Source: Candidatus Competibacteraceae bacterium (GTDB taxonomy: Bacteria > Bacteroidota > Bacteroidia > CAIKAF01). From it: DNA of 37,972 nt. Every line of letters starts with the position of its first letter. Positions within the stretch are counted from its first letter, which is position 1. Below, one piece after another: positions 1 to 37,972 of the stretch. The notes below the pieces were generated by a model. The model searched no databases. It saw only the letters and a list, made by a program, of their open reading frames with translations, and was not told the DNA's origin. The stretch is taken from assembly GCA_014879445.1 (NCBI GenBank), contig JACSSC010000012.1, positions 1 to 37,972 of the forward strand, written 5' to 3'. The position numbers and the translations under genes were made by a program.

Positions 1-486
1 AATAAAAAATGAAACCAAAATAAAGATAATAGATTGGCGATACTGTGTAATAGGAAATGAAAAGATATTATGTTGCAACATATACAAAGAGAGAAAAGCA
101 ACTGTCATTGAATCTGCGGCAACGATATAGCTATTGTAGGAATTTATATTACTGAAGAGAAAGTTTTCTAAAACCCATCCGGCAAAATGCAGTACAGCAA
201 AAATAGCCAAAACTGAAGTGAAAGATGTGCGTTCGGGATGATAACAACGATAAATCCGAAAAAGAAAATAAAGCAATAAAGGAAAAGAAATCAGAGCATA
301 TGTATTAGCAAATGTATGATTGAAAATACCCCAATTAGAGGTTAGAAACATAATCAAATGATAGAGAAATTCTAAAGTAAGAAAAATTAAAAAAGAACTA
401 CCAAAAACATGCTGACTGCGTTTAATAAACAAGAGTATTATGCTTAAAAACAGACAAATCAGGATAACAAATACAAGGAATTCCAT
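1..486 (-). CDS. Multi-pass membrane protein, C-terminus cut by window edge
   Basis: An open frame starts at the ATG at 486-484 and reads leftward with no stop to base 1, giving at least 162 residues. The protein is strongly hydrophobic: an N-terminal segment (about residues 3-20) is followed by further hydrophobic stretches near 28-47, 55-75, 87-105 and 118-135, separated by short basic loops such as KRSQH and RIYRCYHPERT. This is the pattern of a polytopic inner-membrane protein. I recognise no family; it could be a stand-alone membrane protein or the membrane-embedded N-terminus of a larger protein such as a sensor kinase. It lies 49 bp downstream of the 103-residue gene in the same direction, so they may be co-transcribed, although a hairpin sits between them. 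Confidence 0.72.
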   Translation of the reverse strand, partial: MEFLVFVILICLFLSIILLFIKRSQHVFGSSFLIFLTLEFLYHLIMFLTSNWGIFNHTFANTYALISFPLLLYFLFRIYRCYHPERTSFTSVLAIFAVLHFAGWVLENFLFSNINSYNSYIVAADSMTVAFLSLYMLQHNIFSFPITQYRQSIIFILVSFFI

Positions 487-502
487 GGGTTGTTAAGGTA
501 AA

Positions 503-528
503 ATTCCCCTTTAATTAAAAAGGGGAAT
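503..528 (-). terminator. Hairpin between two minus-strand genes (possible attenuator)
   Basis: A 10-bp perfect inverted repeat, ATTCCCCTTT (503-512) and AAAGGGGAAT (519-528), with a 6-base loop. In the minus direction the stem is followed by TTTACC, a short U-run only. It sits between the stop of the 103-residue gene and the start of the membrane-protein gene, so it could partly terminate or stabilise the upstream message. Confidence 0.5.
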
Positions 529-535
529 GATTTAA

Positions 536-847
536 TTACATGTCGGAATTAAGTTTGTTTGGTTTACCACAAATAGGAGGGCAAAGAAGAGTTCTTTCTG
601 CAAGTACTGATAATACATCATCACCATCTGCTGTAACACCACAAGCAACAGGATGAATCATGCCATTGGCATCCAATCCATAATAAAAGCGGATGCCGAC
701 AACATCCTGAATGTTGAGAATTTCTCTAAGAGCTTGTTGGCTAATGTAGCCACCTTTGGGTTGGTTGGGATACTCTGATCTAAAACTTGCCGTCATGGCT
801 GAAGCTTCTCCGATGTCAATTGAATGATCTTCTTCTCCTGTAAACAT
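536..847 (-). CDS. Small conserved-looking hypothetical protein (103 aa)
   Basis: A 103-residue soluble, acidic protein with no signal peptide or membrane segment. Visible landmarks are an N-terminal FTGEEDHSIDI segment, a central GIRFYYGLDANG segment followed by VACGVTADGDD, and a C-terminal CPPICGKPNKLNS segment with two cysteines. I associate this layout (GIR.YYGLD, then a CPP.C tail) with a recurrent small Bacteroidota family of no known function; that is recall, not a search result. A -10-like TATGTTTG lies about 57 bp upstream of the start. The next gene in the same direction is the partial membrane protein, so the pair may form a small operon. No function can be assigned. Confidence 0.8.
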   Translation of the reverse strand: MFTGEEDHSIDIGEASAMTASFRSEYPNQPKGGYISQQALREILNIQDVVGIRFYYGLDANGMIHPVACGVTADGDDVLSVLAERTLLCPPICGKPNKLNSDM

Positions 848-903
848 AATGTGTAAATTTTTAAGTTAATAATTCGACCAAATTATTTATTAATTTTAAA
901 CTT

Positions 904-911
904 CAAACATA
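904..911 (-). promoter_or_regulatory. Candidate -7 element for the 103-aa gene
   Basis: On the minus strand this reads TATGTTTG, an exact match to the Bacteroidota -7 consensus TAnnTTTG. It would start transcription about 50 nt before the ATG at 847. No TTG at the usual distance stands out, so this is a weaker call than the other promoters in the window. Confidence 0.4.
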
Positions 912-968
912 CTTCACGAAAAACAAATTGAATCATCCAAATTATCAATAAGTTACAAGACAAAATGC

Positions 969-1001
969 CGTATTAATACGTATCCATTACGTATTAATAC
1001 G
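969..1001. repeat. Two identical 12-bp palindromes forming one large inverted repeat
   Basis: CGTATTAATACG occurs at 969-980 and again at 990-1001, each copy a perfect palindrome, with centres 21 bp apart. The whole block is also a perfect inverted repeat with 14-bp arms (CGTATTAATACGTA at 969-982, its complement at 988-1001) around TCCAT. It lies between the porP stop (1019) and the start of the 103-residue gene (847). It could be a tandem operator for a dimeric regulator or a stem-loop ending the porP transcript; no T-run follows it on the minus strand. Confidence 0.75.
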
Positions 1002-1018
1002 CAATATGATTAAAAAAA

Positions 1019-1999
1019 TCAGAAATAAAAACAAGAAGAAGATTTACGTTTGTTTAGATGGCGCCCCCACTCGAAAGACAAACTAATTTCGTGAGTACCC
1101 CACTGATTAAGAGCAAGGCCATTAACAGGCATATCAAATGAATATCCAACATAAAACTTTTTGTGCACACGATACATTGTAGTAAAGATGATGCTTTCGT
1201 GATAACGATACGTCATTCCGGTATAAAATTTATCGAGCCAAATGGTTGATACCCCGAGTTCGAAAACAACAGGCGCATCAGCTTGGAATTTAAATAATCC
1301 ATTTGCTTTCAAAGCCCAATTTGGATGAAGTGTAAACACGTAACCTCCAGTAAGATAGAAGAGCGGATCAAAAATCTGAGCATTATTATTGCTGTGATTA
1401 CCTGACGCTAATCCGTTGGTGCGACTAAGCAATCGGGGCACAGAAAACCCTGCATAAAACTTATCTGCAAAATAATAAGCCCCCACACCGGCATTAGGGC
1501 TAAGAATAAGTTGATTGGTGCGCAGTGGGTCTGACTGATCAGCTTCGTTGACAGCTAGGTTTGAGAAATTTGTTTGAATTATATCCATTCCCACATTCAT
1601 GCCGATAGAAAGACGATGAAAATTTTTATTAAGACGAAAAGAATAAGCTGCTTGGGCATATACCCCCTGCATGGCACGGGCTCCCGTAATATCATTTTCG
1701 ATAACGAGGCCCATGCCCAGATTTTTGTCTTTCAGCGGCCCCTGGATAGAAGCAAATTGAGTCATTGGGGCGCCTTTAATTCCTACCCATTGGAAGCGAG
1801 CATTGATAGTTGCATTAGATACATTCTTTGCGCCGGCATAAGCAGGATTAATAAGCAGGGGATTGAGAGTGTACAACGTGGACTGTGCCTGCTGCTGGCC
1901 AAACAGCATCGACGAAGTAAGTAACCACAAAGCAAGCACGATATATTGCACAAAGGGTAAGATGAAGCGAATTATATTTGTATGGCGTAGTTTCATCAT
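1019..1999 (-). CDS. PorP/SprF family type IX secretion outer-membrane protein
   Basis: Encodes 326 residues: a signal peptide (hydrophobic about residues 10-33, ending near FGQQQ) and then a beta-barrel-like protein. The NPLLINPAYAGAK segment near the N-terminus is the hallmark of PorP/SprF proteins, and the rest is alternating aromatic/polar strands typical of the family, close to its usual length of about 300-330. In Flavobacterium johnsoniae SprF is needed for secretion of the adhesin SprB, and family members usually sit directly downstream of their cargo gene. Here porP follows the giant SprB-repeat gene and a 197-residue gene with only an 8-bp gap, so it is probably the dedicated outer-membrane partner of that cargo. 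Two adjacent ATG codons are possible starts. The name sprF would be premature without phylogeny. Confidence 0.92.
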   Translation of the reverse strand: MMKLRHTNIIRFILPFVQYIVLALWLLTSSMLFGQQQAQSTLYTLNPLLINPAYAGAKNVSNATINARFQWVGIKGAPMTQFASIQGPLKDKNLGMGLVIENDITGARAMQGVYAQAAYSFRLNKNFHRLSIGMNVGMDIIQTNFSNLAVNEADQSDPLRTNQLILSPNAGVGAYYFADKFYAGFSVPRLLSRTNGLASGNHSNNNAQIFDPLFYLTGGYVFTLHPNWALKANGLFKFQADAPVVFELGVSTIWLDKFYTGMTYRYHESIIFTTMYRVHKKFYVGYSFDMPVNGLALNQWGTHEISLSFEWGRHLNKRKSSSCFYF

Positions 2000-2007
2000 T
2001 AATTAAT

Positions 2008-2601
2008 TTATACAGGTTGCATAGAAAAAGAAATTGTTGTTGATAATGTTTTTACAGCAGGTCTGTGCAGTTGATTGCAAATTAATTCGGTTTGATGTGC
2101 TATGCGTGTATGCATATATTCAATCAACAGATTTTCGCCCATATGTATAATCATTTCAGAGCCATTGGCATCAATGATACGTAAGCTTTGCACAGAGGGA
2201 ACTCTTCCGGCAAAAGTATCAAGCAATTCTTTGCGAACAGCGTATGCCTGTTCTGAGCTTGATTGACGAAAATCGCATCTAACATAAAACAAATGGTCAT
2301 TCAAGAAGTGATATTCCACATCAACAGGAAGATTAAACAACTCCATCGGATAATAACTTGCATGATGAACCGATGCCAGTTTATTATTAAAAACCAATTG
2401 GGGGTATCCGTATTTTTTTCTCAAATCGTTTGTAGAAATAGAGAAATCAACTGATAATGGTTGTTGGGCATGAATAACACCGCTAAGACAACGCCTATAC
2501 AAAATTTCATCAAACGCAATTCGATATTGATAACGGGTGAATTGTGGCGTTATATGAGAGCTGTTTTTTTTGAAAATCGATAAAATAGGGAATCGTTTCA
2601 T
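2008..2601 (-). CDS. Unrecognised 197-aa protein between T9SS cargo and PorP/SprF
   Basis: A 197-residue protein with no signal peptide, lipobox or membrane segment, so probably cytoplasmic. The N-terminus is basic (KRFPILSIFKKNSSH), the middle is mixed alpha/beta in character, and histidines are frequent (HHAS, HFLNDH, AHQTE). I recognise no domain. It starts 21 bp after the stop of the 1844-residue cargo gene and ends 8 bp before porP, all on the minus strand, so co-transcription is very likely. By position it may act in making, chaperoning or regulating the cargo, but nothing in the sequence proves that. ATG at 2601 is the first in-frame start. Confidence 0.82.
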   Translation of the reverse strand: MKRFPILSIFKKNSSHITPQFTRYQYRIAFDEILYRRCLSGVIHAQQPLSVDFSISTNDLRKKYGYPQLVFNNKLASVHHASYYPMELFNLPVDVEYHFLNDHLFYVRCDFRQSSSEQAYAVRKELLDTFAGRVPSVQSLRIIDANGSEMIIHMGENLLIEYMHTRIAHQTELICNQLHRPAVKTLSTTISFSMQPV

Positions 2602-2622
2602 AATATTTACATTTGGTTTATT

Positions 2623-5600
2623 TTAATAATCTAATTCAACAAAACCGGTGAGTGTATCATAACCATCTCCAAGGTCTATTACATAGTAATAGGTAGCTTC
2701 TGGGAGATAACCATTTCCAGGCAGATGACCGGTGTTTGCTATGCCACGAAAACTTCCATCGTATTGTTGCATATCAAATACCAAGCTACCCCACCGGTTA
2801 TAAATTTGTACGCGATTGTTGGGATATAACCTATCTAAATCATGTATTACCCACTGATCAGCATATCCATCATAATTAGGTGTCAACAATTCAGGAATGA
2901 GAAGATTTTCTACACATCGAATCTGATAGAACCCAATAGTTTGGCATCGATTAGCATCTGTTATTGTTACAGCATGGCTACCGTTCACTGCTATAGAATT
3001 ATTCATTTCAGACACGCCATTCGACCAAGCGAATGTATATGGCTGCACGCCACCCGTTACATCTATTTGAATAAGCCCTTCAGCTACACCACATTTACCG
3101 GGGATAATTGTATCTAAGCTAACCATTAGCATTTCGGGCTCATCAATCATAACATGGATCGTATCTCTGCATCCATACATATCCATTGCAACTATAAGAT
3201 GTTCGCCCGAAATAAGATTTTCAATCAAATCGGTCTGAGCAAGCTGCCCATCAGCCCAAACTGAATATGCAGGAGTTCCTCCTTTGATATCAAGTAACAC
3301 TCTTCCATCATTACGCCCAAAACAACTTACATGATGCAGTTCATCAAGCTCCAGATGAAGTTCTTCAGGTTGCTTAACCAATACATCAAACTCAGCAACA
3401 CAATTATGATTATCTGTAACAGAAAGCAAATAATTGCCCGCCATCAAATTGTTTAACATTACGTTAGTTGAGTTGAACTGGGGCCAGAAATAAGATAAAT
3501 TGCCTGAGCCACCCGAAGCATAAACTTCAACAGCACCATTATTTTTACCAAAACATGTCGGCATTTGAATTTGAATATCATCAAGAACAATTTGTGACGG
3601 TTGATTTAACTGTACATTTTCAACATAGATACAACCGTTATCATCGCTTACTTGAATATCATACATACCAGCAGTTAATGAAGATATTGTAGCAGATTCG
3701 TTAATATTATATGAGTTGCCGTTAGTGCTATATTGATATGTATATACTCCGTTGCCTCCATTTGCCACAATTTCTATCATTCCGTTATCCGCACCAAAAC
3801 AATCAGGTTGATGCAGCACAAATGTGGCTGAAACAAAATTTGTATCATACATAATAAAGAATAGCGTGTCTGAACAAAGATTATCATCAACAATAACAAC
3901 TTGATGTTGCCCAGGAGATAAATTTTGACAAACCGAACCGGCGAATGAAGCATCATGACTCCATGAATAAGTATAAGTTCCTGTTCCTCCATTCGTTTCA
4001 AGAGATACCTGGCCATTAGATGCTGCACACTGAGAAGGTATTAATGTAAATGAGTTATGGAGTGCGGATGGTTCAAATATTTCAACTTCGATATTTGCCT
4101 GACAACCCTTGTAATCATTTGCTGTAACCTGATATAAACCTGCAGTAAGATGATTTGCCGAGTGAACATTCAGATTAACATCATGCGACCATACATAGGT
4201 GTAACTGCCATTTCCACCGTTAGGATGAATTACGATCTCGCCATCATTGCCATTATGACAAGAAACTTCACTGGTCAATGCTTGTAAAAACATAGAGTCA
4301 GGTTGATTAATCCAAACGAAAATTGTATCTGCACACACTTGTTCAAATCCATTTTGAGTTACAATATGCTGATACCATCCGGAACTTAGATTTGACAAGG
4401 TAGAATCGTTTGTCTGTATGAAAGCAGATTGAGATAACCAAGAACCCGAATACTGTCCGTTTCCACCAGCAACATGCCAGTGAATCTCACCATCATCATT
4501 ACCAAAGCAGGTAACCGGTGTAACTGAATGGGGTTGTGAAATGGTATTGGCCACAGTAATTTGTCGAATATCTGTTACTTTGCATCGAGCGGAATAAGTT
4601 ACATCCACTTGAAGAATTTCGGATTGTTCTACCCAATATGGGGTAGCAGTAATTCCATTGCTCCACACAAGCGACTCAAAAGAGCCAAAACCATTTGTAT
4701 TAACAGGATAAGGAAGCTCCTTACAGCCAATGATGGTATCAGGTCCTAAACCATTGATAGGATCGCCGGGAATAAATATCCAATTGATATTATTCCCCAA
4801 ATTTTCACCGCCCACATTGACGATATATTGATTATTTAAACAAAAATTATCAATCGCCTCAATATCTCTCAATCGGGCATGTTGCACATCAAGGTGACAA
4901 GCCGGATGAGAAATTTTAGCACGTATGCCGGGTAGTGATGACTGGACAGTAGTACGAAAACAGGGCGTGCCTTTTGAAATCAAAATGTCAGAAATATTCT
5001 GAGTTGCATTGCTTTCAAGTTCATAAATTCTGCCTTCAGAAAAAATAAGGGTATCAAAAATATTTGAACCATATATTTTACCATTGCCTGCAAATGATAC
5101 CCATTCAAAACTTACAGGATACTGATAAAAAGAAGAAACTAATAAACCATTTCCTGTTTCGTTTGTATAGTCAACTTTTTTAAAGTGCATTTGCTGATGA
5201 GTTCCACTGAGATAAAGCGCTGGTGCTGAATGCCTCATAAATAAAACAACATCGTCGGTATAAACAGTATGCAAATTATGATGAAATGAGAATAATGCAT
5301 TACCATATATATTAAACACTGAACCTAAAGCATTATATTCGAATTGCGTACCGGCAAATGGCAAATAATTCGCCGTATAATTTTTCACACTAATTGCATG
5401 ACCTTGTGTAAAAAAAGAGCCTGAATAATGCTCGATTCCGGCTGCAGGCATATAGATATCATCGCTAAGATAATAACTTCCGACTCCAGCAAAGATTAAA
5501 CGACCAGGAATGAGTACCTGATTGGTCTCAACAGTACGTGAAGATGACGTTAGCATACGAGTTGGTCCGCTGAATGAAATCCATAGTCCGAAATCATATC

Positions 5601-8157
5601 TCAATCCACCATAGTTATTAAGTTGATATACCGGAGATCCTGATAGTACACGATTAGTACCTGTTCCGGGCATCCAGTTCATGCCGGTATAATTAGAATT
5701 TGTATTGATAAACACCGTATCATTAAGTGGAAAAGAATTGTGATGAAAAACTACGCTGTCAATAAAACCGGGCAAACAACCATTCACATTATACAGATAT
5801 GCATCATTATAATTACCAGCATGAGGCAACACGTCAATATTCCAATTATCAGATTGTGACCAAAATGGTTGTGCCCCTTCACCATTCCAGTAAAAAATGC
5901 GTGATGATGCCGGATTATCAAATATTATATTTGTATTATTCTGATGATCCGCTCCATTATTAATATGAATAGGAGCATTTCCATTCAGATGAATATTCTT
6001 GCAAATGAGATTGTGTACAGTATCATTTGAAATTCCGGCAAAATGAATTGTTGTTTGTTGCACGGGATGAGAAGATGTGAGATATGCCAAATCATTACAA
6101 ACATCGGTTAATACATCTATTCCCTGATTAATACGAATCAATCTGTTATTTTGAATTTCAACACGATATCCTCCATGAATAATTAATGAGTCGGCTTGTG
6201 TTGCAGAAGTATTATTTGCAACCGGAAGATTTGTGATAATTGCATTAGCACCAAGCTCAATTTTGCGAAAAGCACATTTCTGATTCATAGTAATGACGGG
6301 CTGAGACAATGGATTATGAAAAGTCAAATCATAAAACTGCAAATCATTATTACCATGAATCTGAAACATTGGAGTAAGATTAAATTGATATGGGAAATAA
6401 ATCATTGAGTGATTAGATTCAAGATCAAAGTTGTTTGAGTGTAAAACAAAGTTGCCGGGATATCCTTGAGCATTTCCCATCTGCATCTTAGAGCCGACAA
6501 TATTAAGATTACGATAAGCCATAGGTAATTTAGTCGGGCTGGATGAATAACTAGCCGCAATCAAGTCGTTTGACTGCAAAATAATGGTTCCTTGATTATG
6601 ATAGATAGCTTTATTGCCATGTGCTATATTGAGCAAACCGTCAACAATCCATTCTCCTGTTCCAAAAAAAGCAATATGATTACCAAAAGCAAGATTACGA
6701 GTATGCAGTATATGTTGCTCATGGCCGTAAAAATTTGTCTGAATATTCAAATCCATGTATATTAATCCACGAAAATCAATACCGCCACGAATGTGCATGG
6801 CGCCCTTTTGAGTTGCATTAAAAACAGGTGGAGCAGGCATCGCTTGTTCAAAGCGAATATCGTGCATGAAAGCATGATTTGTTATTATTAATGAATCGCC
6901 AGCTACAAAACCTGACATGGCATCCACTACGACATCTGTATTAAAATCAGGAATACAACCAGAAGGGATACCACCACTTGTATAAGACCAGTGAGAACCA
7001 TCATTCCATTTTCCTTGCCCACCAACCCAATATAAAGTTTGAAGTGATGTATTGCCAAACTGAATCTGCTGATTGTTTCCCAAATCAACACCATTCATTA
7101 TTGTCAACATGCCTGTCGATGATTTGGTATTCGCAATAGCAGTATTATATAACTGTATAGTATTGGGAAAAATTAAATTGATTCGATTACCATGAATTTC
7201 ATTTCCATCTGTAATCATATAACGACTATGACAATTTACAGATTGAAAAATCTGATGAATTTCATAACCGGCAACAAAAGGCGACTCTGTAAAAGTGCAA
7301 ACAGCAGATTCGCTTAATAAATGAAGATTGCTGATATAATAATTTTTCGCATTCGTTTGTTTAGATCCCAACAAGTTTATATCGCCTTCAGCATATATAT
7401 TCTCAAATGATGCATAACTCATCATACCATCCAACATCATTTCGCCACCAGGTACAAAGCGTACATCATAAAATTGAACTGAACCGCTGAGGAAAATTAA
7501 TTCTTTAATCAGCAAGTTTGAATAAGATGCAAGAAAAGACGATGAATTATTGAGATTAATAATAAGTTTCTCTGTTGTTAGATTTGAATTTTGACAATTC
7601 AATATTTTTGACTGAGCATTATTATCAAGAATAACACTTAACGCCTCCACTGAAAAACCCTGCATATTAAATGTACCAGAAACAACTTTTAAGATGCTGT
7701 AAGGAATCATTAAATCATTTTGTAAAGAAACTGATCCTTGTTTTTTTATTTCTATCATTCCCAATAAAAAATTTGCATTCGTGCCGATTGTTATGGATAC
7801 ATTACCGCTTCCGGTAAATTCCATAATTCCTCCGCCGGTAATAGATGAAGCACCTTGAATATTCAAACTTCCACCTACAAGTATTTTCCATCCCGATTGA
7901 ACAACAAGCATCAACTGAGATCCATTATATGTAATACTCTTACATGAGGCGTTTGCATTTCCTATCTCAATCATTCCGGCAAAACCGTTTGGTATGATTA
8001 CATCATCTGACAAAGATGGCACACTCTGTGGTTGCCAATTAGAAGGATGGTTCCATTGGTTCGAAACAGTGCCTGTAAATGTATGTAATGCATGTAATGA
8101 AAAAATCTGACCTGAAAATAGGAGGATAAAAACTAATTTTTTAATTGTTGGATTCAT
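2623..8157 (-). CDS. Giant SprB-repeat surface protein with T9SS type B (gliding-motility) C-terminal domain
   Basis: The chosen start, ATG at 8157, gives 1844 residues and a good signal peptide (MNPTIKKLVFILLFSGQIFS). An in-frame ATG at 8226 would add 23 residues ahead of it and weaken the signal. The first two thirds form an extended beta-rich region with three spaced motifs of the type W.G....W....NW (near 35, 385 and 760). From about 1215 to 1720 there are seven SprB-type repeats of about 78 residues, each beginning like V.CFG.NDG.I and carrying a GG.G.YTY.W core. The last ~90 residues (PELLTPNYDGYADQW ... IYNRWGSLVFD ... TGFVEL) are the gliding-motility-associated type B sorting domain used by T9SS cargo. 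It heads a likely operon with a 197-residue protein and a PorP/SprF protein, so it is probably secreted to the surface as an adhesin or filament. It is much smaller than F. johnsoniae SprB. Confidence 0.9.
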   Translation of the reverse strand: MNPTIKKLVFILLFSGQIFSLHALHTFTGTVSNQWNHPSNWQPQSVPSLSDDVIIPNGFAGMIEIGNANASCKSITYNGSQLMLVVQSGWKILVGGSLNIQGASSITGGGIMEFTGSGNVSITIGTNANFLLGMIEIKKQGSVSLQNDLMIPYSILKVVSGTFNMQGFSVEALSVILDNNAQSKILNCQNSNLTTEKLIINLNNSSSFLASYSNLLIKELIFLSGSVQFYDVRFVPGGEMMLDGMMSYASFENIYAEGDINLLGSKQTNAKNYYISNLHLLSESAVCTFTESPFVAGYEIHQIFQSVNCHSRYMITDGNEIHGNRINLIFPNTIQLYNTAIANTKSSTGMLTIMNGVDLGNNQQIQFGNTSLQTLYWVGGQGKWNDGSHWSYTSGGIPSGCIPDFNTDVVVDAMSGFVAGDSLIITNHAFMHDIRFEQAMPAPPVFNATQKGAMHIRGGIDFRGLIYMDLNIQTNFYGHEQHILHTRNLAFGNHIAFFGTGEWIVDGLLNIAHGNKAIYHNQGTIILQSNDLIAASYSSSPTKLPMAYRNLNIVGSKMQMGNAQGYPGNFVLHSNNFDLESNHSMIYFPYQFNLTPMFQIHGNNDLQFYDLTFHNPLSQPVITMNQKCAFRKIELGANAIITNLPVANNTSATQADSLIIHGGYRVEIQNNRLIRINQGIDVLTDVCNDLAYLTSSHPVQQTTIHFAGISNDTVHNLICKNIHLNGNAPIHINNGADHQNNTNIIFDNPASSRIFYWNGEGAQPFWSQSDNWNIDVLPHAGNYNDAYLYNVNGCLPGFIDSVVFHHNSFPLNDTVFINTNSNYTGMNWMPGTGTNRVLSGSPVYQLNNYGGLRYDFGLWISFSGPTRMLTSSSRTVETNQVLIPGRLIFAGVGSYYLSDDIYMPAAGIEHYSGSFFTQGHAISVKNYTANYLPFAGTQFEYNALGSVFNIYGNALFSFHHNLHTVYTDDVVLFMRHSAPALYLSGTHQQMHFKKVDYTNETGNGLLVSSFYQYPVSFEWVSFAGNGKIYGSNIFDTLIFSEGRIYELESNATQNISDILISKGTPCFRTTVQSSLPGIRAKISHPACHLDVQHARLRDIEAIDNFCLNNQYIVNVGGENLGNNINWIFIPGDPINGLGPDTIIGCKELPYPVNTNGFGSFESLVWSNGITATPYWVEQSEILQVDVTYSARCKVTDIRQITVANTISQPHSVTPVTCFGNDDGEIHWHVAGGNGQYSGSWLSQSAFIQTNDSTLSNLSSGWYQHIVTQNGFEQVCADTIFVWINQPDSMFLQALTSEVSCHNGNDGEIVIHPNGGNGSYTYVWSHDVNLNVHSANHLTAGLYQVTANDYKGCQANIEVEIFEPSALHNSFTLIPSQCAASNGQVSLETNGGTGTYTYSWSHDASFAGSVCQNLSPGQHQVVIVDDNLCSDTLFFIMYDTNFVSATFVLHQPDCFGADNGMIEIVANGGNGVYTYQYSTNGNSYNINESATISSLTAGMYDIQVSDDNGCIYVENVQLNQPSQIVLDDIQIQMPTCFGKNNGAVEVYASGGSGNLSYFWPQFNSTNVMLNNLMAGNYLLSVTDNHNCVAEFDVLVKQPEELHLELDELHHVSCFGRNDGRVLLDIKGGTPAYSVWADGQLAQTDLIENLISGEHLIVAMDMYGCRDTIHVMIDEPEMLMVSLDTIIPGKCGVAEGLIQIDVTGGVQPYTFAWSNGVSEMNNSIAVNGSHAVTITDANRCQTIGFYQIRCVENLLIPELLTPNYDGYADQWVIHDLDRLYPNNRVQIYNRWGSLVFDMQQYDGSFRGIANTGHLPGNGYLPEATYYYVIDLGDGYDTLTGFVELDY

Positions 8158-8283
8158 GACTTCGTCGATTTCTGTTGGCAATGTATGCCTCAGAATATTC
8201 GATAAGCAAGGATGCAATTGCTGCATTTTATATGCATTATCAGCAAGTATGCATGAATAATTACAGACAGTTGTAAGTAGAAT

Positions 8284-8310
8284 TACGTATGCCTAAAGTG
8301 GGCATACGTA
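8284..8310. terminator. 10-bp stem-loop between copA and the cargo operon
   Basis: TACGTATGCC (8284-8293) and GGCATACGTA (8301-8310) are perfect inverted repeats around a 7-base loop. It sits 21 bp after the copA stop on the minus strand and may end that transcript, but no strong U-run follows. The arms contain TACGTAT, also present inside the palindrome block near 980, so a shared DNA-binding site is an alternative reading. Confidence 0.5.
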
Positions 8311-8330
8311 TAAAAATGAAAATTGAAATA

Positions 8331-10511
8331 TTATAATGATGCAGTACGAAGGCGGATGCTATTCAGCACAACACTCACCGAACTAAATGCCATAGCAGCG
8401 GCTGCAATCATGGGATTTAGCTGCCATCCGGTTAATGGATAAAAAACACCTGCAGCAAGTGGCACTGCCAGGATATTATAAAAAAATGCCCAAAATAAAT
8501 TCTGTCGAATCACACGTAATGTCTTTATCGAAATCCGAATTGATGTATGCAACAAGCGCAGATCAGAACGTATAATTGTAATATCGGCCACTTCTCTGGC
8601 AACATCAGTGCCACTTCCCATTGCAATACTAACATCGGCATACGACATAGATTCAGCGTCATTCATGCCATCACCAACAACTGCCACAACACGGCCTTCA
8701 GCTCTTATACGTTGAACAATTTTTGATTTATCCTCAGGCAAACACCCAGCATAATATTTTTTAATCCCCGTTAATGCAGCAACTATTTTGGAAGGATTTT
8801 CTTGATCACCTGTTGCCATCACAAAATCAATGCCCTCATCTTTCAGTTTTTGAACAGCTGCTGCTGCTTCATTCTTTATAGTATCAGAAACCACTGCCGC
8901 CATCAATATTTCTTTATCAGTTCCCAACAATACATATCCTGGCCATTGCTTGGTTTGTTCTTCAATCATTTCATGAAAAGATGTTTCAAACATAAGTTTA
9001 TTGCCCGTTTGATATGTAGTTCCATTATATGATGCCACAATACCCTTTCCAGGAATTTGAGAATAATTATCAACGCTTAGTACTTCAACACCTATTCGTT
9101 GTAAATAATCGGCCAAAGCTCGTGAAACCGGATGCGTTGATTGCCTTACCATCGAATAAAAAACCGATAATGATAAATTATTATCCGACGGATGCTTCAA
9201 TACAACCAGTTCATTGATACTTATTTTCCCTTCAGTAAGTGTACCCGTTTTATCTATAACAATAGTTTGAATCGATCCTGCCTTTTCAAGGACTTCTGCA
9301 TTTTTAATAAGAATTCCTTCTTGAGATGCTCGACCAATTCCGGCAATTATGGCTGTTGGCGTTGCTAATCCCATTGCACAAGGGCAAGCAATAATTAAAA
9401 CTGCAACCGTAGAAAAAACGGCGCGATGAATTTCTCCAGAAAAAAATATCCAGGCAAAAAAAGTTAATGCTGCAATAACTAAAATAGTCGGTACAAAAAT
9501 AGTTGAAATACGATCTACCTGACGCTGAACAGGGATTCTTGATTCCTGAGCATCCTGAATGCGCTGCACCATTGCAGATAAAAAAGTTTGGCTGCCTGTA
9601 GCAGTAGCTTTTATTCTAACAGCGCCATGCATATTAATAGAACCTGCCTTTACCATTTCTCCCGATAATTTCTCAATCGGAATGGACTCGCCGGTAATAA
9701 AACTTTCATCCACCAAAGCATTATCATACAAAAAACCATCAGCGGGAAATGTGCAATGTTCTTTGATCCATAATTCATCTCCGGGCATCAACATCTGAAC
9801 AGGTACTTCGACCTCTGCCCCATCTTGAATGATAATAGCAGTAGTCGTCTGGCGTTCGATTAGTTTGCGAAGCGATACAGCAGCCCTAAATTTAGCTTTC
9901 TCTTCGATGGTTTTTCCTAATATTATAAATGATATAATCATTCCAGCCGGCTCAAAATATACATGTAATACATGATCAGCATGCATGATAATCCCATGAT
10001 AAACCAATAGGTATGTGCTATAAAAAAATGCAACTAACGTACTCAAAGAAACAAGCATATCCATCCCCATTCGGCCAGTACGAAGAGAAAAAAAAGCATT
10101 GCGATGAAATGAAAATCCCACAACAAAAACCAAAGGGATAGCCAACAAAAACATAACCCATGCGGCAAGAATAGAATGCATATATATCATTCCTATCAGC
10201 ATGAGAGGAACAGCAAACAAGAAGGCAAAAATCGTTTTTCGTACTTCCTTGAGATAAACGGTTTTGCGAATTTTAAATGGATCTATCTCTTTTCTGTCAA
10301 TAACTAATCCATATCCATGACGTTCGACTGCCGCCTGAATAGATTGTGGCAGAATCAAAGATGAATCATACTGTACCGACAATGTATGCGTAGCAAAATT
10401 AACACGTGCGCCTGAAACCCCTATCAAAGAAGCGACGATGCCCTCAACACCCGAAGCACAGGCCGTACAAGACATACCTGTAACAGGAAAAACATCAACC
10501 ACAATTGGCAT
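8331..10511 (-). CDS. copA: Copper-translocating P1B-type ATPase (CopA-like)
   Basis: A 726-residue heavy-metal pump with one N-terminal HMA domain carrying GMSCTACASG (Cys15, Cys18) for Cu+ binding. Transmembrane helices follow, then an actuator TGES motif, then the intramembrane CPC motif (Cys376-Pro-Cys378) that marks Cu+/Ag+ specificity. The phosphorylation site is DKTGT (Asp420), with an SxHP motif in the nucleotide domain and GDGMNDAESM in the hinge. The final helices contain the family-typical YN....PLAAG and MAFSSVSVVLNS segments. It exports copper from the cytoplasm using ATP. It starts 35 bp after a small lipoprotein gene and is probably read through from parE; no CopZ or metal regulator is next to it. 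All catalytic motifs are intact. Confidence 0.96.
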   Translation of the reverse strand: MPIVVDVFPVTGMSCTACASGVEGIVASLIGVSGARVNFATHTLSVQYDSSLILPQSIQAAVERHGYGLVIDRKEIDPFKIRKTVYLKEVRKTIFAFLFAVPLMLIGMIYMHSILAAWVMFLLAIPLVFVVGFSFHRNAFFSLRTGRMGMDMLVSLSTLVAFFYSTYLLVYHGIIMHADHVLHVYFEPAGMIISFIILGKTIEEKAKFRAAVSLRKLIERQTTTAIIIQDGAEVEVPVQMLMPGDELWIKEHCTFPADGFLYDNALVDESFITGESIPIEKLSGEMVKAGSINMHGAVRIKATATGSQTFLSAMVQRIQDAQESRIPVQRQVDRISTIFVPTILVIAALTFFAWIFFSGEIHRAVFSTVAVLIIACPCAMGLATPTAIIAGIGRASQEGILIKNAEVLEKAGSIQTIVIDKTGTLTEGKISINELVVLKHPSDNNLSLSVFYSMVRQSTHPVSRALADYLQRIGVEVLSVDNYSQIPGKGIVASYNGTTYQTGNKLMFETSFHEMIEEQTKQWPGYVLLGTDKEILMAAVVSDTIKNEAAAAVQKLKDEGIDFVMATGDQENPSKIVAALTGIKKYYAGCLPEDKSKIVQRIRAEGRVVAVVGDGMNDAESMSYADVSIAMGSGTDVAREVADITIIRSDLRLLHTSIRISIKTLRVIRQNLFWAFFYNILAVPLAAGVFYPLTGWQLNPMIAAAAMAFSSVSVVLNSIRLRTASL

Positions 10512-10546
10512 ACAGATTCCTATTATATAATATTAGATTGATACGA

Positions 10547-11284
10547 CTACTCCTCGAAGCATTCGTATTCATACGTATAAGTTACATTTCGTGAAGCAGG
10601 CAATCCGTTTTCGTTGTATAGATATGTATTTGATTCCTGATTCTGCAAAACATTCATACTATTATAAGACAATATCTCTGTAATATTGTTTGCACAGAAC
10701 GAAGAAAAATCAGTATCAGATACTAGCTGCATTAACATAAGAAAACGCAAAGGATAATATGGGTTTACGGCCTGATCATACGAATAAAGTTTATATTCTC
10801 CACTATTACGAACCTTTTTTACAACATTCCCATTTTGCCAATACAAAGTATCTGCATACAATAATGTGTTACTATTATCATAAGCATAATTTAAAAAAGG
10901 ATCACCATGATTGTCATAGTGTAAGATGTAATTCAACACAAGAGATTCACAATATCCGTCTTGATTGCTATCAGAATGTACATAAATAGATTTGATTCGA
11001 CCAGATGGATCATAAGCTATATAGAAAAAAAACATAATCTTTCCCGTATAATCATACATACGGTTCGTTGATGGAATTCCGTTTTCAAAATCTACGTAAA
11101 TAGAATAAACTAGAATACCATTAGTATTGTATAATTTAATATGATCGGGTATTTGGTTGTCGTTGTAATTAACTGATACAACCACACTGCCATCTGAAAG
11201 CAAATGCTTAAAACGACAAATCGTTTGTTTTTCAGCGCAGGATGTTAAAATCAGAATAGTAAGTAATAGAAATAATAATCTCAT
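10547..11284 (-). CDS. Hypothetical lipoprotein (245 aa)
   Basis: The N-terminus MRLLFLLLTILILTSCAEKQ is a lipoprotein signal peptide with lipobox LTSC and lipidated Cys16. The mature part is rich in Tyr and Asn and holds repeated short strands of the kind LYNTNGILVY..YV, MYDYTGKIMFFFYI and YLYNENGLPASR. These resemble the YD-like / DUF4595-like beta hairpins seen in many Bacteroidota lipoproteins, suggesting an extended beta-sheet. That domain link is by eye only. It lies 7 bp after parE and 35 bp before copA on the same strand, so it is probably co-transcribed with both. No function is evident. Confidence 0.78.
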   Translation of the reverse strand: MRLLFLLLTILILTSCAEKQTICRFKHLLSDGSVVVSVNYNDNQIPDHIKLYNTNGILVYSIYVDFENGIPSTNRMYDYTGKIMFFFYIAYDPSGRIKSIYVHSDSNQDGYCESLVLNYILHYDNHGDPFLNYAYDNSNTLLYADTLYWQNGNVVKKVRNSGEYKLYSYDQAVNPYYPLRFLMLMQLVSDTDFSSFCANNITEILSYNSMNVLQNQESNTYLYNENGLPASRNVTYTYEYECFEE

Positions 11285-11291
11285 AAAAAAA

Positions 11292-13142
11292 TTAAATGGT
11301 TTCTGCTAAATCGAGCTCAACTTTTAGGTTGTTGATAATAAAATCCTGTCGTTCGGGTGTATTTTTCCCCATATAGAAAGTGAGAAGAGCATCAATTGCG
11401 CTATCTTTTCGAATAACGACAGGTTCAAGGCGAATGTCTTCATTGATAAACTGGCGGAACTCGTCAGGTGAAATTTCACCTAATCCTTTGAAACGTGTTA
11501 TTTCGATAGATTTGCCTAGTTTGTCCATCGCTTTTTGTTTTTCCTGATCATCATAGCAATATATCGTTTCTTTTTTATTACGTACTCTAAAAAGAGGTGT
11601 CTGCAAGATATAAAGATGACCGGCCTTTACTATATCAGGAAAGAATTGTAGAAAAAATGTAATGAGAAGAAGACGGATATGCATACCGTCCACATCGGCA
11701 TCAGTAGCTATTACAATATTATTATAGCGAAGATTATCAATTCCATTTTCAATATCTAATGCATGTTGTAAAAGATTAAACTCTTCGTTTTCGTAAACAA
11801 TTTTTTTACTTAGGCCATACGTATTTAGTGGCTTACCCTTTAAACTAAAAACGGCCTGAGTATTTACATTACGCGCTTTAGTGATGGATCCGCTAGCCGA
11901 ATCACCCTCTGTAATAAATAACGTAGTATTTAATCTGTCGGCGTGATTGGAAGAGAAATGAACACGACAATCGCGAAGTTTTCGATTATGAATAGCTGCC
12001 TTTTTGGCACGTTCACGGGCAATTTTTTTGATACCCGCCAATTCCTTTCTTTCTTTCTCGCTGGCAATAATTTTCTCAAGCAATACCTGAGCAATTTCAG
12101 GATTTTTGTGAAGAAAATTATCTAACTCAGTTTTAACAAAATCCATAATAAAGGAACGAATACTAATGCCGTTTGGCGACATATGCTGTGACCCTAATTT
12201 AGTTTTTGTTTGTGATTCAAAAACCGGCTCAATTACCTTAATACTTACTGCGGCAATGATAGAGCTTCGAATATCGGAAGGATCAAAATCTTTTTTATAG
12301 AATTCACGTACTGTTTTGACAACCGCTTCTCTAAAAGATGCTTGATGTGTGCCTCCCTGCGGAGTATATTGGCCGTTTACAAAAGAGTAATATTCCTCTC
12401 CGTATTGATGACCGTGAGTCATCGCTATCTCAATATCTTCACCTTTTAGGTGTATGATGGGATAATTGATTTCGCCACTCAAATTGGCCTGCAATAAATC
12501 AAGCAGTCCATTCTCGCTCCGAATAGATGCGCCATTAAATCGAATCGTAAGTCCGGTATTGAGGTAGGCATAATTCCACAACATTTTTTCCACATAACTG
12601 CTGCGATAATGGTAATTGTGAAAAATTTCATCATCGGGTATAAAGCTAATGATGGTGCCCGGCTTTTCTGAGGAGGATTGAACAGCGGTTTCTTTTTGCA
12701 ACTCACCACGGCTAAACTCAGTAATTTTCGTTTTATTATCTCTAACCGATTGCGCCATAAAATAATTAGATAGCGCATTCACAGCTTTGGTTCCAATACC
12801 ATTTAATCCAACAGATTTTTTGAATGACTCTGAGTCATACTTAGCACCCGTATTAGGTTTAGCTACGCAATCAATTAATTTACCAAGTGGAATCCCACGA
12901 CCATAATCCCGTACACGAACTTGTTGATTTTGAATTTCCACATCAATCAAATTGCCATTCCCCATTACAAATTCATCTATGGAATTATCTATAATTTCTT
13001 TTAGCAGTATATAGATACCATCATCGTGTGAAGACCCATCGCCAAGTTTACCAATATACATTCCCGGTCGCAAACGAATATGCTCTTTCCAATCAAGCGA
13101 ACGTATATTTTCTTCGGAATATGAAATTTTCTTCTCTGCCAT
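11292..13142 (-). CDS. parE: DNA topoisomerase IV subunit B (type IIA topoisomerase ATPase subunit)
   Basis: Read from the ATG at 13142 (616 residues, [18 protein letters not shown]); the frame stays open upstream but only to a TTG that overlaps the promoter. GHKL ATPase motifs are clear: EIIDNSIDE (Asn/Asp for Mg-ATP), DYGRGIP and [14 protein letters not shown]. The transducer QGGTHQ segment follows, then the Toprim domain with EGDSASGS (Glu412) and [10 protein letters not shown], and finally the [12 protein letters not shown] and RQDFIINNL region. Length and the [16 protein letters not shown] wording fit Bacteroidota topoisomerase IV B rather than GyrB. With ParA/C it decatenates replicated chromosomes. 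No parC gene follows here; a lipoprotein gene and copA do. A strong TTG-N19-TATATTTG promoter sits right upstream. Confidence 0.94.
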
Positions 13143-37317: not shown

Positions 37318-37972
37318 CTAATGACGTTGGTTAATGATAACCTGACGAGTTATGATTCCCTCCTCGGTTAATATCTGCAAATAATATGTAGCTGCAGATA
37401 AATGGCTGAAATCGAATGTCTGAATTGATGCCATCAGGTTTTGGGTGTACACCACTTGACCAAGCGTAGTAATCAATCTTATGGAAACTGATCCGCGAGG
37501 CATCTCACTCAAAGACAATGTAAATTGACCTTGGTTGGGATTAGGATATACAGAAATACTGATATCGTCTGAATCAGAATCAAGGCCACTGCAATCAATA
37601 ACCTCTACAACTTGAGTTTGAGTAGCCGTATTACCTGCGGCATCTTCATATTCCCAAGTTACTGTATAAGTACCTATAGCTGTATATGAAGTTGGATCTG
37701 TCGTTGTTGCTGTAATCGTACCATCACAGTTATCAGTTGCTGTTGGATATGTTGAAATGGTAACAGCACAACCAATAATATTTGACAAGGATGCTATATC
37801 AGGTACGGGGGCGTCATTATCTCCAACAAACGCTGTTTGTGTTTGCGTAACGGTATTTCCATTACCATCATCATAGGTCCAGGTTACTGTATATGAGCCG
37901 GGTACTGTATAGCTTGTCGGATCGCTTGTTGTGGCCGTAATTGAACCTGAGCAGTTATCGGTTGCCGTAGGT
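37318..37972 (-). CDS. T9SS type A sorted repeat protein, N-terminus beyond window
   Basis: The frame is open to the right window edge, giving at least 217 C-terminal residues; the internal TTG at 37788 is not a real start. Two tandem HYR-like/Ig-like repeats are visible with a 75-residue period: each contains PTATDNC.G.ITATT.DPTSYT, a YTVTW.Y.D..GNT.TQTQ strand and then an APVPDI linker. The last ~80 residues (ISVYPNPNQGQFTLSL ... GQVVYTQNL ... YYLQILTEEG) are the type A T9SS C-terminal sorting domain. The protein is therefore exported through the type IX system and probably anchored at the surface. The paired cysteine (DNC and IIGC) in each repeat suggests a disulfide. No PorP/SprF-type partner is needed for type A domains. 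Confidence 0.9.
   Translation of the reverse strand, partial: PTATDNCSGSITATTSDPTSYTVPGSYTVTWTYDDGNGNTVTQTQTAFVGDNDAPVPDIASLSNIIGCAVTISTYPTATDNCDGTITATTTDPTSYTAIGTYTVTWEYEDAAGNTATQTQVVEVIDCSGLDSDSDDISISVYPNPNQGQFTLSLSEMPRGSVSIRLITTLGQVVYTQNLMASIQTFDFSHLSAATYYLQILTEEGIITRQVIINQRH

Follow-up and report, generated by a model that had tools for sequence, protein, structure and literature searches.

A divergent family of small signal-less proteins in Bacteroidota and its genomic linkage to giant exported proteins

Cargo proteins of the type IX secretion system (T9SS) with a type B sorting domain usually have a PorP/SprF gene directly downstream of their own, although this arrangement is not universal and Flavobacterium johnsoniae has orphans (PMC12618676). 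In the DNA studied here, a stretch of 37,972 nucleotides (contig JACSSC010000012.1 of assembly GCA_014879445.1, called the window below), the PorP/SprF gene does not directly follow the gene of a giant type B cargo: a gene for a protein of 197 amino acids (aa) is located between them. What is such a small protein doing there? A preliminary description, made from the DNA alone, had suggested a chaperone, targeting factor or regulator for a very large cargo and, with it, a new part of the T9SS type B route. As far as profile comparisons can tell, the protein belongs to a very divergent, patchily distributed and hitherto undescribed Bacteroidota family of basic, signal-less proteins of about 200 aa. 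Its members probably do help or regulate giant exported proteins, as an optional addition, a function that is putative.

On the minus strand, the cargo gene is followed by the 197-aa open reading frame (ORF) and then by the PorP/SprF gene. Strand and both intergenic gaps (Table 1) are as the preliminary description stated, and since a strong hairpin stands just beyond the PorP stop codon, these tightly packed genes look like one operon. In what follows, G numbers denote the genomes compared (G000 is that of the window) and L numbers denote loci. Among 16 genomes of the window's taxonomic family, a homologue of the 197-aa protein is present in only one relative, the congener G002. There, the small gene starts 19 bp past the cargo gene and overlaps the PorP gene by 4 bp (-4 bp). 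Because the same three-gene unit is kept at 44% identity of the small protein, the ORF is a gene and not a chance reading frame. Between the two copies, the nonsynonymous rate (dN) is 0.48 and the synonymous rate (dS) is saturated. To judge from the alignments, the gene is under constraint; it also evolves faster than both neighbours, since the cargo proteins are 59% and the PorP proteins 71% identical. The other two congeners gave no match to the 197-aa protein, and since the closest PorP relatives there are far more distant (37-41%), the whole unit appears to be missing from them. The window's own genome gave a weak match (G000:C58), which falls inside a RecQ-like gene and is spurious.

The 197-aa protein fits no known family, as had been noted before: searches of Pfam, NCBIfam, PHROGs, PADLOC and PDB sequences gave no match, which includes BamE / SmpA-OmlA (PF04355) and the receiver domain (REC, PF00072), and no PglZ domain was found either. 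Its description as soluble and signal-less also holds, with no signal peptide or membrane segment detected and a maximum hydropathy of 0.63 in the first 45 residues, compared with 1.87 for the hydrophobic N-terminus of the cargo (read from Met at 8157) and 2.25 for PorP. A profile of two sequences picked up weakly matching candidates in further families of the class. With one of them as query, the window protein was recovered at an expectation value (E) of 7e-4, together with five further genomes, and iterated profile searches extended the family to about 25 members of 184-230 aa. Most are only 13-20% identical to the window protein, and they have in common the motifs I.F....FG, GKPR, FYK..I, Q.HF....FFY....F, KY and D.N. 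None of the full-length members has a signal sequence, and most have an isoelectric point (pI) of about 9 or more.

Two further groups are joined to the family by profile-profile comparison, with E values that are somewhat optimistic because both compared sets had been picked by profile: a distant subfamily (E 4e-9) and a set of secreted relatives (L127:8253-8735, L129:8569-9075, L131:2183-2713, L128 and L130; E 2.7e-9 over about 134 columns). The latter share 'FRNV.WG ... K(Y/F)G.P' motifs with the family, carry N-terminal hydrophobic signal sequences and have unrelated neighbourhoods; one of them matches BamE / SmpA-OmlA weakly (E 0.058). Against the PDB, the profile of the family gave only short, chance-level matches, and a sequence match to choline kinase (E 0.024, 44 residues only) was taken as chance. 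Family members occur in at least 15 of 395 genomes of the class and, with the remote secreted forms counted in, in at least 10 of 395 genomes of a phylum survey; both counts are lower bounds because scoring was confined to a few top candidates in each genome. In the genus of G229, one of 36 genomes has the family. A search of genome contigs with the single 197-aa sequence found no match, an alignment query recovered only three already known loci, all from metagenome-assembled genomes of Bacteroidetes, and no plasmid copy was found by tblastn. Matches in G230 and G867 are situated within frames of 493 and 1,279 aa.

The neighbourhoods of these genes point to giant exported proteins. Family loci were counted once per genus or cassette, which gave 16 independent loci, and were compared with 184 size-matched control genes of 150-260 aa from 800 kb of five genomes with cargo-linked members; genes were longest-ORF calls, and loci at contig edges (G152, G236 twice and G487) were left out. 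Seven of the 16 family loci and two of the 184 controls had, no more than 700 bp away and on the same strand, a gene for a protein of 1,000 aa or more (Fisher 1.7e-7); without the window locus the count is still six of 15. These giants belong to G000/G002, G020, G109, G229, G269, G105 and G304. An eighth, in G022, ends at a contig edge after 856 aa, and in G182 the neighbour, of 634 aa, has a tail that matches type A weakly. The giant has the small gene on its 3' side in G000, G002, G020, G109, G304, G269 and G105 and on its 5' side in G022 and G229. In a tree of the family, most cargo-linked members come together in a group with weak support (10 of 13 rows); G269 comes in addition. In G020 (L086:7742-9135), two tandem and rather different family copies stand behind one giant of 2,354 aa.

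Domains recognised in the giants are SprB, PKD, laminin-G and T9SS tails. The tails are of type A in G229, G269 and G105 and weakly so in G109, G020 and G182, and no recognised T9SS tail was found in the G304 giant. Outside the window's genus, tails of linked cargos are thus of type A or not recognised, and no PorP gene is adjacent. The preliminary description had asked whether homologues always lie between SprB-like and PorP-like genes; in this survey they do not, and the proposed new part of the type B route is not supported. A link to very large cargos is supported, with seven of the 16 loci next to a giant and about half of them not. A family located mostly away from T9SS cargo genes, which had been named as the outcome that would speak against the idea, is not clearly what was found, because the share of loci that adjoin giants is so far above that of the controls.

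The structure of the protein was predicted with AlphaFold2. With 20 aligned members, the model reached a mean predicted local distance difference test (pLDDT) score of 83, and about 94 across most of residues 30-170; with two sequences only, the score was 43. Helix, three strands, helix, three strands and helix follow one another, with an extra helical part at the N-terminus, and a tandem alpha-beta3 fold is likely. The best match in VIA-align is the double-wing domain of Escherichia coli YdcD (8wj5; Z 8.5 over 110 residues, 3.1 A), followed by N-terminal domains of SCP-domain proteins (4h0a with Z 7.9, and 4ifa; second Z 6.7) and TagH, and lower down by OsmE (4dm5) and a putative BLIP (3d4e); Z near 8 can reflect a common arrangement. 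Foldseek gave E 2.4e-3 with a template modelling (TM) score of 0.36. Viral structure matches were scattered and gave no lead, and a literature search on the YdcD double-wing domain found no paper.

We tentatively favour a dedicated cytosolic pilot or chaperone for giant cargo, and we infer its location, its cargo binding and its chaperone role alike. The 197-aa protein would be made together with one giant surface protein, as its cytosolic protein-binding companion. The giant preprotein would pass from cytosolic translation through Sec export to the T9SS and, in the window, to a PorP/SprF-like shuttle at the outer membrane. Before or during Sec export it would be bound by the small protein through the basic tandem alpha-beta3 fold, acting as an adaptor. 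Such a protein would serve only certain giant cargos, with tails of either type, as an optional extra, and would not be a step of the T9SS route. This reading is favoured by the tight same-strand packing and the hairpin beyond PorP, the giant linkage and its survival when gene order is swapped, the type A tails of linked cargos, the clustering in the tree, the signal-less and mostly basic character of the members and the well-predicted core. In G656, a family member is divergent from a 995-aa protein that is SecDF-like by eye only (L126:5285-8272 and 8507-9139); such a neighbour could matter if the family has a role connected with Sec.

Several observations weigh against a chaperone of this kind. 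Because several of the linked giants are homologous to each other, the independence of the linked loci is incomplete. Of the 16 loci, about half (G039, G335, G727, G656, G877, G731, G163 and G850) do not adjoin giant cargo, and in the first six of these the neighbours are metabolic or unrelated. T9SS cargos are many per genome and family copies one or two, so that cargos without a family gene are the rule. The sister-genus genome G012 has an orthologous cargo (E 2e-284) and PorP (45% identical) with no family member between them. In its place stands the gene of a 128-aa stand-alone REC protein (L033:4341-4727), followed by a strong terminator-like hairpin. At most other PorP loci of the taxonomic family with a cargo neighbour, the cargo gene immediately precedes the PorP gene. 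For a reporter to be secreted in F. johnsoniae, a type B C-terminal domain (CTD) and its SprF shuttle are enough (PMC12618676), and binding between SprF and SprB has been described (PMC9143113). Since the family is rare, mostly linked to type A cargos and replaceable or absent, and since CTD and SprF suffice, these comparisons do not support the family as a general component of type B secretion.

Other loci bring in two-component regulators. In G850, G905 and G788 the family member is the last gene of a cassette with a TPR histidine kinase, a REC-GerE regulator and a stand-alone REC protein (Table 1), and in G163 it is found 8 bp behind the gene of a LuxR-type response regulator. Together with the REC protein in the cargo-PorP slot of G012, these loci are consistent with a signalling or regulatory adaptor, which would work with REC proteins and set the timing of the giant protein or the drive of the T9SS motor with no contact to the cargo. 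The basic charge of the family would suit acidic REC partners, and in F. johnsoniae PorX uses its CheY-like domain to bind GldL, a T9SS motor protein (PMC10951265). However, REC neighbours occur at only two of 16 independent family loci compared with five of 184 controls (Fisher 0.10, not significant alone), no regulator adjoins the cargo-linked loci, and the replacement in G012 is a single case; we consider such an adaptor somewhat unlikely. Linkage to cargo is statistically strong, and linkage to receiver proteins is weaker and mechanistically suggestive. A scheme that spans both would make the family a newly described cytosolic, cargo-specific component of T9SS export, composed of pilots or chaperones for type A and type B giants whose double-wing/BLIP-like fold would serve receiver-domain partners in other Bacteroidota; taken as a whole, it is in our opinion doubtful.

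A mere passenger gene, co-inherited or hitch-hiking with variable surface-protein modules and having an unrelated house function, would account for the patchy spread in the class and in the genus of G229, for the roughly one half of the loci that have no cargo link and for the homology of some linked giants. It would hardly account for a linkage that extends across several families, with swapped order and always on the same strand, at frequencies far above the controls, nor for the tight spacing in the window and G002, and we regard it as quite improbable. An immunity-like protein against a toxin-like giant, or one that neutralises such a cargo, suggested by the position of the small gene beside a giant secreted protein and by the fold match to YdcD (whose gene is presumably a neighbour of rhsE in E. 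coli), is very improbable indeed, as the giants have no toxin domain, family members also occur in signalling cassettes, PADLOC gave no match and a shared fold shows no function.

The products of the two flanking genes in the window are securely assigned. The cargo matches CHU_C (PF13585) with E 1.7e-21 (76.6 bits, cut-off 27) and the Bac_Flav_CTERM sorting domain (TIGR04131) with E 3.1e-11 (43.3 bits, cut-off 35), and the Pfam search found seven stretches of SprB repeats. The shuttle matches PF11751 (E 1.8e-62, 211.8 bits) and TIGR03519 (E 1e-65, 222.1 bits), both over cut-off. Downstream of the unit follow genes for a 103-aa protein and for a hydrophobic protein of at least 162 aa, neither of which matches Pfam, and at the far edge of the window a T9SS cargo of type A, with an HYR_4C domain, is represented by its C-terminus. 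No Rfam element was found in positions 1-12000 of the window.

Table 1. Coordinates of the three-gene unit, of other features of the window and of the regulatory cassettes (window positions unless a locus is named)
Feature	Position	Strand	Remarks
Giant type B T9SS cargo, 1,844 aa	2623..8157	minus	Met at 8157 is the signal-peptide start; longest-ORF start 8226; layout: signal peptide, N-terminal 'NW..P..DDVIIPNG' region, 7 SprB repeats, C-terminal CHU_C/TIGR04131 sorting domain
Gap, cargo stop to 197-aa start, 21 bp	2602..2622	minus	
197-aa protein, basic (pI 9.0), signal-less	2008..2601	minus	predicted tandem alpha-beta3 fold
Gap, 197-aa stop to PorP/SprF start, 8 bp	2000..2007	minus	
PorP/SprF-family T9SS shuttle, 326 aa	1019..1999	minus	
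Hairpin (CGTATTAATACG...CGTATTAATACG)	969..1001	minus	immediately beyond PorP stop; z -4.1; probable transcript end
103-aa protein	536-847	minus	
Hydrophobic protein	1-486	minus	
Type A cargo, C-terminus	37318-37971	minus	
Conserved four-gene cassette, three genera, 228-aa family member	L146:1369-5879, L147:4440-9008, L148:4943-9452		domains checked for L146

T9SS studies have so far dealt mainly with the motor, the shuttles of the outer membrane and the signal at the C-terminus, and to our knowledge the production and pre-Sec export competence of very long preproteins (1,400-2,800 aa) are little studied. Through a cytosolic family linked to cargo, this pre-Sec step or else cargo-specific regulation would become accessible, and the family as defined here, with about 25 members, a model and conserved motifs, is directly testable.

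Among known systems, the class I chaperones of type III secretion (SycN-YscB, 1xkp; AvrPphF ORF1, 1s28) resemble the 197-aa protein in being small, soluble and encoded beside their substrate (a putative one for the 197-aa protein), and roughly in the alpha-beta3-alpha-beta3-alpha order, which had raised their fold as a candidate. The comparison does not support it: VIA-align Z is only 3.4-3.5, no better than for protein kinases, and the 197-aa family is basic, whereas type III class I chaperones are usually acidic. E. coli YdcD, the N-terminal domains of SCP/CAP proteins, OsmE and BLIP resemble the predicted fold in its likely repeated alpha-beta3 units, but no sequence similarity to them was found, and SCP proteins, OsmE and BLIP are exported whereas the 197-aa protein is signal-less. 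PorX and PorY are cytosolic two-component proteins of the T9SS (PMC10951265, PMC5005315), and some family members are located behind REC proteins; the 197-aa protein itself differs from them in having neither a REC nor a PglZ domain.

The closest parallel to the locus is sprB-sprF of F. johnsoniae (Fjoh_3952-3951; PMC9143113, PMC12618676), where a giant cargo with SprB repeats and a CHU_C/TIGR04131 tail likewise forms a tight unit with a same-strand PorP/SprF gene. Their shuttles differ at the C-terminus. F. johnsoniae SprF bonds GldK through a Cys-Xaa-Cys tail (PMC12635249), which its close homologues also have; the window protein ends in KSSSCFYF, and because this tail has a single Cys and no Cys-Xaa-Cys, the protein is, by its sequence, a PorP/SprF-family member and not a close SprF homologue. 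Tails elsewhere read VSCFYF in the sister-genus orthologues, SDCFF in another PorP clade and SPRYF in many others. By analogy with the bond between SprF and GldK, a tail with one Cys may be the mark of shuttles that travel along the gliding track. Beyond this difference in the tail, the window departs from sprB-sprF by its additional gene, inserted between cargo and shuttle, for the signal-less 197-aa protein.

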